Below, piece after piece: positions 12,927 through 13,503 of a stretch of DNA of 13,503 nucleotides. A program made the position numbers and the translations under genes. The notes beneath the pieces are model-generated. The model saw only the letters and a program-made list of their open reading frames with translations, was not told where the DNA came from and did not search any database. Location: positions 1 to 13,503 of the forward strand of contig JAGBAU010000312.1 in the NCBI GenBank assembly GCA_017938785.1. Direction: 5' to 3'. How positions within the stretch are numbered: the first letter of the stretch is position 1; every line of letters begins with the position of its first letter. Source of the DNA: Clostridia bacterium. Its GTDB lineage: Bacteria; Bacillota_A; Clostridia; Christensenellales; Aristaeellaceae.

Positions 12927-12971
12927 TTTTAGCCTTCAAACGCTTGACGCAAAGCCGTTTGGAGGCTAAAA
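12927..12971. repeat. Long dyad overlapping the mgtE promoter
   Basis: TTTTAGCCTTCAAACG (12927-12942) pairs with CGTTTGGAGGCTAAAA (12956-12971) over 16 positions with a single G-T wobble, around a 13-base centre. The right arm covers most of the spacer and the -10 of the promoter, and the -35 lies in the centre. It lacks a T-run on the plus strand, so it may be an operator or a weak terminator for the upstream gene. Confidence 0.65.
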
Positions 12972-12972
12972 T
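12944..12972 (+). promoter_or_regulatory. Promoter of mgtE and its leader
   Basis: -35 TTGACG (12944-12949), a 17-base spacer and -10 TAAAAT (12967-12972). Transcription should start near 12979-12980, about 325 bases before the mgtE start codon, leaving room for a long regulatory leader. Confidence 0.75.
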
Positions 12973-13025
12973 GATAGGAGGGAAACTTCCCATTTTTGAC
13001 ACATTTTTATTGGAGGTGGCAAAGC

Positions 13026-13097
13026 ATGGACGACGGCGGAAGAAGTATGTCGGCTGATGGCGTGCCTCGAAGCATGCGTTCATTGCTGCGTCGCTGA
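13026..13097 (+). CDS. Short leader ORF (23 codons) upstream of mgtE
   Basis: ATG at 13026, TGA at 13095-13097. The SD GGAGGTG (13012-13018) matches the 16S tail over seven bases with a seven-base gap to the ATG, the best ribosome site in the window. The peptide starts MDDGGRSM, has one proline in the middle and ends with a basic RSMRSLLRR. No family is recognised. It lies within the leader of mgtE, and its last codons form one arm of a hairpin described separately. The acidic start followed by an Arg-rich end recalls the enteric leader peptide MgtL upstream of mgtA, which senses Mg2+ through translation; that comparison is by layout only. It is most likely a cis-acting leader peptide rather than a functional product. 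Confidence 0.6.
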   Translation: MDDGGRSMSADGVPRSMRSLLRR

Positions 13098-13137
13098 TTG
13101 ATTCTTAAAACGGTCAGCGCACACGCAATACGCTGAC
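13087..13137 (+). promoter_or_regulatory. Mutually exclusive hairpins in the mgtE leader (candidate attenuator)
   Basis: Structure A pairs TGCGT and CGCTGA (13087-13097, the end of the leader ORF including its stop codon) with TCAGCG (13114-13119) and ACGCA (13123-13127), leaving a three-base bulge. Structure B pairs GTCAGCG (13113-13119) with CGCTGAC (13131-13137). Both need the same central segment, so only one can form. A ribosome at the leader stop codon would block A and favour B. Confidence 0.5.
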
Positions 13138-13304
13138 ATCATCTTGGCAGGCCTTCATTCTTCACACAAATCCGAACGTCAAATCGGTCGGCAGCTTCGG
13201 CTGGCGAAAGCCCGGTCGGCGCACCCTGGGTGCGCGGATTGCTTTCCTGTTGCCGGAATTGCCGGAAATCGTGTGCAAACACACAAAAAAGGAGGATGAA
13301 GCCA
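13138..13304 (+). promoter_or_regulatory. Structured remainder of the mgtE 5' leader
   Basis: No gene is seen here. It contains CAGC-TTCG-GCTG (13192-13203), GGC-GAAA-GCC (13203-13212), a perfect 7-bp GC-rich hairpin GCGCACC/GGTGCGC (13219-13235, three-base loop), two abutting copies of TTGCCGGAA (13250-13267), GTGTG-CAAA-CACAC (13271-13284), and the mgtE ribosome site AAAGGAGG (13288-13295). GGCCTTCAT (13150-13158) can pair, with one bulged C, with ATGAAGCC (13296-13303) between the ribosome site and the start codon. No clear U-tailed terminator is visible. The M-box segments typical of Mg2+ riboswitches are not recognised. Confidence 0.5.
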
Positions 13305-13503
13305 ATGGATTTTGATCGCATTAAATCCCGCCTGGACGCACTGCTGGAAGCGGGCCGCAAGGCCGAGCTGCGCGGCGCCCTGAATATGCTCAACGAAGTT
13401 GACATTGCGGAATATCTGGAAACCCTTGACAATGAAAAAATGCTGCGCGTGTTCCGCCTGCTGCCCAAGGACATCTCGGCGGAGGTCTTCTCCTACATGG
13501 ACA
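13305..13503 (+). CDS. mgtE: Magnesium transporter MgtE, N-terminal part (3' end outside window)
   Basis: Sixty-six residues are visible before the window ends. The sequence (LDALLEAGRKAELRGALN.., then NEVDIAEYLETL, then NEKMLRVFRLLPKDISAEVF) matches the helical N domain of MgtE, where the phrase RLLPKD(x)AAEVF is highly characteristic. MgtE is a dimeric Mg2+ channel of the cytoplasmic membrane, gated by its cytosolic N and CBS domains; those CBS and membrane parts lie beyond the edge. Start ATG 13305 follows AAAGGAGG by nine bases. An in-frame ATG at 13296 touches the ribosome site and is unlikely. The long leader upstream suggests control by a cis-acting RNA element, fitting a Mg2+ transporter. 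Confidence 0.88.
   Translation, partial: MDFDRIKSRLDALLEAGRKAELRGALNMLNEVDIAEYLETLDNEKMLRVFRLLPKDISAEVFSYMD

Follow-up and report, generated by a model that had tools for sequence, protein, structure and literature searches.

Genes of the mgtE type are controlled in Bacillota by the M-box (ykoK, RF00380), the textbook mgtE sensor of this phylum, whereas enterobacteria are known to sense Mg2+ by a different route, namely how stable the ribosome is during translation. The locus considered here raises the question of which kind of control acts on an mgtE gene whose long leader contains a short ORF. The window, i.e., the whole stretch of 13,503 nucleotides that was analysed, ends within this gene, and the leader of about 330 bases lies between the end of a HAD-family gene (12899) and the mgtE ATG (13305). 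An earlier note, made from the sequence alone, had proposed that this leader, apparently not an M-box, is switched by ribosomes which move along the ORF according to Mg2+ and thereby choose between two hairpins, A and B. The Rfam covariance search that it called for gave no M-box and no other family in the window, even at E-values up to 5, the five matches listed being far below the cut-offs, nor any such family before mgtE in the thirteen nearest relatives (L001-L013) at the gathering threshold. The same scan returned an M-box of 153 bits in our positive control (L034), and the view that the present leader is not an M-box was thus upheld. The elements to which the following paragraphs refer are these:

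12944-12972, forward strand: promoter-like sequence TTGACG-17-TAAAAT for the mgtE transcript (10 of 12 consensus matches)
13012-13018, forward strand: Shine-Dalgarno (SD) sequence of the leader ORF, GGAGGTG, with a seven-base gap (from the sequence; comparable SD in relatives)
13026-13097, forward strand: leader ORF of 23 codons and stop, MDDGGRSMSADGVPRSMRSLLRR (ATG at 13026, TGA at 13095-13097)
13051-13077, forward strand: putative anti-sequestor inside ORF codons 9-18, able to pair with 13136-13161
13092-13119, forward strand: hairpin A, predicted by folding (arms 13092-13100/13111-13119), which includes the ORF stop
13113-13137, forward strand: hairpin B, predicted by folding (arms 13113-13119/13131-13137)
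13150-13163, forward strand: putative sequestor S, GGCCTTCATTCTTC, behind the ORF stop, which could pair with the mgtE ribosome-binding site (RBS) or, within the longer stretch 13136-13161, with the ORF
13188-13265, forward strand: G+C-rich hairpin between sequestor and RBS, without a U-run (13180-13304 fold z -2.37)
13290-13304, forward strand: mgtE RBS, AGGAGGATGAAGCCA, target of the sequestor, with SD AGGAGG at 13290-13295
13305-13503, forward strand: 5' part of mgtE, running off the window (Pfam MgtE_N, E 1.3e-8)

The promoter-like site, the 23-codon ORF and its seven-base SD match with a seven-base gap, all described in the earlier note, were indeed found, and the entire leader folded better than its shuffles (z -3.2). 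Promoter-like sites of this quality are expected by chance at a mean of 0.5 per shuffle of the region. Promoter-like hexamers were seen by eye at the equivalent place in most of L002-L013, and sites with at least 9 of 12 matches stood 5' of the ORF in 67 of 155 ORF leaders, compared with 36 of 775 shuffles, in a scan whose distance limit places the window itself outside. The promoter-like site of the window is overlapped by a 16-base near-perfect inverted repeat (12927-12971, fold z -6.6) that lies 27 bases 3' of the HAD gene and has no U-run; it may serve as an operator or as a combined terminator/promoter element.

Conservation of the leader ORF was evaluated among relatives of this mgtE. 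Species genomes scanned with the 66 MgtE residues visible in the window yielded 44 loci, and an ORF of 23-27 codons with an SD was present at the same place in 13/13 of the nearest ones (L001-L013), which are all the loci with at least 59% identity across the whole MgtE query. Further family members were chosen by MgtE similarity alone, and an ORF encoding an acidic second or third residue was found in 52 of 61 new loci in one set (six repeats left out) and in 30 of 30 in another (L301, a repeat of L009, left out). Four of the nine blank loci of the first set (L222, L220, L225, and L214) do hold the ORF according to a pattern search (G399, G420, G438, and G360), these blanks being due to an SD filter that misses real cases. 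The start codon varies between ATG, GTG and TTG with the frame kept, and the family alignment shows strong divergence between leaders everywhere except in the ORF and in the pairing elements described below. The earlier note had staked its proposal on homologous leaders keeping at least the ORF or the alternative pairings, and the ORF is kept. At one relative's locus (L010), two mgtE copies each seemingly have their own leader ORF, MGDGVRCQAKEDIPRSRRVPVALPE and MVSGEKCRAVEDEPRGSSAVSALSA.

In the family ORFs, the head (MxDGxRCxxx[DE]GVPRS) is constrained and the tail is free, and conservation within the head is spaced (Gly4, Arg6, Cys7, Glu/Asp11, Val13, Pro14, Arg15, and Ser16). Near-identical leaders were collapsed before alignment, substitution and covariation counts. 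In 56 distinct 48-base heads, codons 2-16 gave a pN/pS of 0.56 in frame versus 1.66 and 1.02 in the shifted frames, a value reached by only 1 of 200 column shuffles; these heads had been selected by an expression fixing the residue class at positions 6, 11, 13, 14, and 15, which lowers pN at those positions and makes Pro14 invariant by construction. The ratio was 0.66 on the ten codons outside the selecting expression. When 87 heads were chosen by SD strength alone, it was 0.73 in frame versus 1.12 and 1.00, a value as low as this occurring in none of 60 column shuffles, and [VI]P[RLE] was present in 65 of the 87 heads. Synonymous variety, which such residue-class selection of rows leaves unaffected, was wide: all four codons at Pro14, three at Val13, AGY and TCN at Ser16, and both at Cys7. 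This in-frame substitution pattern and the synonymous variety indicate that the ORF head is selected as a peptide, the tail being free. The acidic start of the peptide, to which the earlier note had pointed, held well (residue 2 or 3 was acidic in 83 of the 87 SD-chosen heads), and its Arg-rich end did not, codons 17-23 being without protein constraint (pN/pS 0.97). The window peptide itself has Asp2-Asp3 and Pro14, and no EPDP-like run.

Some codons were nearly fixed in the family heads (Arg15 CGA in 54/54 of the heads with Arg at this position, Gly12 GGC in 45/45, and Asp3 GAC in 46/46), and hence the nucleotides are constrained too. CGA is a poorly decoded codon. At Arg15 (13068-13070 in the window) it is fixed although neighbouring codons vary synonymously, which may reflect either a pairing constraint or a slow codon.

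The association of this device with mgtE was then evaluated at a wider scale. The SD and ORF-start pattern in the style of the window, with two mismatches allowed, occurred in 68 of 308 family genomes, once in each; it covers window-style heads only, and an MgtE N-terminal match was present in 192 of the 308. Sixty-seven of these 68 places lay 147-368 nt 5' of an MgtE match on the same strand, the last (G403) being a two-mismatch match in a genome without a listed mgtE match, and the reversed pattern gave 0 matches in the 308 genomes. Wider samples were taken from the order (mgtE in 89 of 200 genomes), from the class (112 of 148) and from the 44-locus scan, with matches fetched in part. Under a rule accepting ORFs of 10-50 codons that match the SD in six or more bases and start with Met-Asp or Met-Glu (the M[DE] rule), 82 of 173 usable distinct mgtE upstream regions contained such an ORF; the count leaves out the window and L155 (a repeat of L034), and regions with less than 280 nt upstream were dropped. 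The controls gave 0 of 175 antisense regions, 10 of 875 shuffled ones, 1 of 29 corA genes (one family) and 0 of 153 other genes, the last figure being obtained after removal of the initial positives (11 of 164), which were mgtE genes missed by the motif filter. The ORF with the best SD had Asp or Glu as second residue in 81 of 100 cases. By eye, the distant leader peptides share an acidic start, Gly/Ser and often Pro, as in MDSDPLPGK (L126), MDYDPLPIL (L122), MDPGPLPSL (L124), MDAGSSSG (L064), MEPDGCYL (L026), MDGSSESIPLGPER (L031, Anaerotignum lactatifermentans), and MDEIPKS (L044, Erysipelotrichaceae); the start could not be placed in L095. Comparison thus indicates that the leader ORF is real, conserved and specific to mgtE, far beyond chance. 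The one positive among the corA genes (L306) has its ORF, MEGDSGASGNCKN..., about 145 bases 5' of the gene, with an eight-base SD match and in the style of the mgtE leaders; the device may occasionally serve corA.

The distribution of this ORF was compared with that of the M-box. In the order sample (62 leaders), 28 had the ORF only, 15 the M-box only, 1 both and 18 neither; the corresponding numbers in the class sample (69 leaders) were 28, 11, 5, and 25, so that neither M[DE] ORF nor M-box was called in 43 of the 131 leaders. An M-box followed by a leader ORF that starts with Met-Asp was found in 6 of the 131 (L124, L126, L133, L134, L144, and L079), an ORF beside an M-box having been counted only if it began after the M-box, so that the order with the ORF between M-box and mgtE was required by the rule. 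In L124, L126, L133, L134, and L144, this tandem of M-box, Met-Asp ORF and mgtE has the ORF end 13-22 bases before mgtE. Duplicates, truncated leaders or second tandem copies (L049, L051, L059, L060, L097, L108, and L116) were left out of these counts, as were regions with less than 280 nt upstream, and L050, whose ORF starts with Met-Gly-Asp, falls under "neither" by the M[DE] rule. The leader ORF therefore appears to replace the M-box or, in six of the 131 leaders, to come after one.

As regards the RNA, two pairings were predicted to compete for the sequestor: one with the mgtE RBS (S:RBS, 13150-13163 with 13291-13303, -18.1 kcal/mol) and one with the ORF (ORF:S, 13051-13077 with 13136-13161, -21.1 kcal/mol). 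RNAalifold on MAFFT alignments of whole leaders revealed S:RBS in the window's group and was otherwise mostly uninformative, as a result of length variation. Covariation was therefore measured segment by segment, the mutual fit of each leader's segments being compared with their fit to the segments of other leaders of the same group, in 64 leaders, seven groups and 1000 within-group permutations; the groups were drawn after inspection of the alignment and the permutations ignore the tree, a weakness common to the control pairings. Both S:RBS (z -4.96) and ORF codons 9-18:S (z -3.93) exceeded all permutations (0/1000 each), compared with z values of -1.68 to +1.24 for 14 other pairings involving codons 1-9, the ORF tail, the upstream region, the next downstream segment, reversed segments and others, the best of which (codons 9-18 with the mgtE coding start) reached p 0.049. 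Taken by group, ORF:S covaried in c5, the largest (24 leaders, 0/2000), and in the window's group (p 0.0065), the signal being absent in c1, c3, c4, c6, and c7 (p 0.14-0.84), which are mostly small. S:RBS covaried in c5 (0/2000) and c7 (0.002), more weakly in c3 (0.033) and c1 (0.037), and without significance in the group of the window (p 0.12) and in c4 and c6; the sequestor had been placed by its distance from the stop codon in five groups and by motif in the window's group and c3, where this placement favours S:RBS, not ORF:S. Coordinated changes were visible in single leaders, such as L276, where GGAAGGCGTGCCC of the ORF pairs with GGGCATGCTTTTCC, and L219 (codon 12 = ACA), where GAAACAGTGCCC pairs with GGGCTTGTTTC. 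Two mutually exclusive, covarying pairings thus appear to share the sequestor, one of them using the ORF, the latter in two of the seven groups, and the ORF:S pairing would offer a reason for part of the codon-level constraint in the head.

Other pairings of the ORF were considered and rejected. Codons 1-9 with the CGTC motif before the terminator gave a mean duplex z of -0.8 over 54 leaders and no consistent register, and codons 1-9 showed no covariation with S or with the next downstream segment in the 64 leaders. In L199, L201, L202, and L203, GGACG-AA-GGCGG at the ORF start complements CCGCC-AC-CGTCC before the terminator by eye, with no family-wide covariation.

Hairpins A and B, which the earlier note had taken as the switch itself with A using the stop-codon region, do exist, share 13113-13119, and A does use the ORF stop. 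Both fold, although the stretches that hold them exceed shuffles by a modest margin only (z -1.4 to -2.2). In L002, B has a counterpart with changed bases that can be seen by eye. However, the spacer that carries them is nearly missing in L190 and L191: there the next conserved element follows the stop after just a few bases, and ORF, sequestor and RBS persist. A and B therefore look local, other pairings being conserved instead, and it is highly improbable that they constitute the switch. The idea that two pairings exclude each other and that the ORF takes part in one of them stood nonetheless, S:RBS and codons 9-18:S being in the place of A and B.

Of 77 family leaders, 54 had an intrinsic terminator between the ORF and mgtE; the figure was 6 of 231 for shuffled leaders and 0 of 8 for the window's group, window included; under a looser U-run rule, terminator candidates appeared in L001, L002, L003, and L005, not in the window. 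The G+C-rich hairpin of the window (13188-13265) occupies the place of most relatives' intrinsic terminator. In the window's group, RBS sequestration must consequently do the work, unless Rho acts.

Taken together, comparison of the leaders speaks for a conserved coding ORF, for its specificity for mgtE, for competing covarying pairings and for terminators in the relatives. Our preferred reading, to which we give a probability of about 0.57, is that of a ribosome-controlled leader-peptide switch for mgtE, with Mg2+ as the signal and the two competing pairings as its RNA part. We infer translation of the ORF in the cell, Mg2+ as the signal, drop-off rather than stalling of ribosomes, and the following order of events. 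The mgtE mRNA would begin just 5' of a leader ORF of 21-32 codons, the first 16 residues of which would act inside the ribosome (Met, an acidic side chain within the first three positions, Gly/Ser, and in the window's family usually Val-Pro-Arg-Ser). When Mg2+ is plentiful, ribosomes would pass through codons 9-18 and cover the anti-sequestor; the sequestor would then pair with the mgtE RBS and turn expression off, a state that the intrinsic terminator would reinforce in most relatives. When Mg2+ is low, ribosomes would be lost at the acidic start, as described for MgtL and, as regards acidic residues, for mgtQ, and codons 9-18 would capture the sequestor during transcription, leaving the mgtE RBS open and expression on. 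ORF:S can form first since its bases are transcribed before the RBS. Against this model, equilibrium folding revealed no switch: mean RBS accessibility was 0.26 with the ORF free and 0.24 with the ORF covered in 70 leaders (those above 330 nt skipped, the window excepted), and 0.13 in every state in the window. As the RBS is then equally closed whether the ORF is covered or free, the model depends on folding during transcription.

Other findings also speak against the drop-off switch: the ORF:S signal comes from two of the seven groups, S:RBS lacks significance in the window's group, c4 and c6, some codons are nearly fixed as nucleotides, 43 of the 131 sampled leaders gave neither an M[DE] ORF nor an M-box, and the window's group has none of the U-run terminators. 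A drop-off signal, moreover, would not require a motif as specific as Val13-Pro14-Arg15-Ser16. The head may instead be an arrest peptide, with a stall at Val-Pro-Arg-Ser (codons 13-16), perhaps Mg2+-dependent, and a stalled ribosome on the anti-sequestor that sets the fold. The spaced and specific conservation of the head, its free tail and the CGA fixed at Arg15 speak in favour of such an arrest, which we nevertheless consider rather unlikely: CGA is equally explainable by pairing, a stall over codons 9-18 would switch mgtE off and would thus need high Mg2+, and the other groups lack the GVPRS motif, having only an acidic start with Gly/Ser and Pro (MDSDPLP, MDGSSESIPLGPER, MDAGSSSG).

The architecture is that of a ribosome-driven attenuator, which, together with the fixed Arg and Pro, would suit classical attenuation in which the signal is not Mg2+ but a charged tRNA (for Arg, Cys or Pro) or translation stress in general; in Salmonella, mgtP has been described, in the parts of the article available, as a sensor of charged tRNA-Pro (PMC8092293). 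But these ORFs contain no single-codon runs, what the groups have in common is the acidity of residue 2 instead of Arg, Cys or Pro, and they sit on mgtE and alternate with the M-box, which makes tRNA sensing quite improbable. It is slightly less probable still that the leader is an unrecognised Mg2+ riboswitch or another aptamer in which the ORF is incidental. Several codons are conserved at the nucleotide level and the window has a strong G+C-rich fold, as would be expected of an aptamer; against this stand the coding substitution pattern, the ATG/GTG/TTG starts with the frame kept, the strong divergence outside the ORF and pairing elements and the lack of any Rfam match. The ribosome-controlled Mg2+ switch thus remains our preferred reading.

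This switch would have known counterparts in other bacteria. In the accessible parts of the reports on enteric MgtL, the leader peptide of mgtA, the peptide has an acidic residue 2 with Pro nearby (EPDP, Glu2/Asp4; PMC11282234), and ribosome drop-off alters the leader fold and turns the gene on (PMC11282234; PMC11552253). The clostridial leaders resemble it in having a short ORF before a Mg2+ transporter gene, an acidic residue 2 and Pro. By contrast, they belong to another phylum, precede MgtE instead of MgtA, and carry GVPRS instead of EPDP, the likeness being a loose pattern only; as to output, they would act by RBS sequestration, by an intrinsic terminator or by both, where mgtA relies on Rho. 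The peptides are very short. An independent origin seems more likely. Closest in output logic to the window's leader is Salmonella mgtQ, located before mgtB, which is described in the available parts of its report as a drop-off ORF (Asp2/Glu5) whose RNA joins in alternative stems, so that the RBS 3' of it is either masked or set free (PMC8092293); it has 8 codons and is intergenic between mgtC and mgtB, whereas the present ORF comes first in the transcript, before mgtE. The logic of the proposed switch, MgtL-like as in the earlier note, agrees with both MgtL (Glu2/Asp4 of EPDP) and mgtQ-mgtB (Asp2/Glu5, RBS release).

Other leaders linked to Mg2+ differ more. Sensing in the M-box, absent here, is by an aptamer and would be by the ribosome in the proposed switch. 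The mycobacterial M-box uORF rv1805A is described as a short ORF of a Mg2+-related leader in which the N-terminus and a Pro are conserved; in that case the uORF is itself under M-box control, and the peptide is called mycobacteria-specific (PMC12810186). The mgtE motif of Thioalkalivibrio (SRC-65-1) is an RNA motif before mgtE, a riboswitch candidate of one genus only, with no leader ORF described in the accessible part of the source (PMC11109978). Within the open-access literature as far as it could be seen, we came across no description of a leader ORF that precedes mgtE in clostridia. Control of this kind is known from MgtL and MgtQ; the phylum, the transporter, the motif, the spread and the link with the M-box are apparently new.

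A broader proposition can be put forward tentatively, at somewhat short of even odds. About half of clostridial mgtE genes may be under independently evolved nascent-peptide Mg2+ sensors of the form Met-[Asp/Glu]-Gly/Ser-rich-[Val/Ile/Leu]-Pro-[Arg/Leu], at least as frequent there as the M-box, behind which they would sometimes lie in tandem. In the window's family, the head of 16 residues would be a specific sensing peptide whose codons carry the anti-sequestor, peptide and RNA being read from the same 30 bases. If this is true, clostridial mgtE genes would use ribosome-based sensing at least as often as a riboswitch, and evolution would have swapped or stacked two Mg2+ sensors on one gene. 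It would open the question of whether acidic-start drop-off responds to physiological Mg2+ outside Proteobacteria. These leaders would also provide a large natural set of nascent-chain sensors, and would annotate short ORFs that gene finders may miss.
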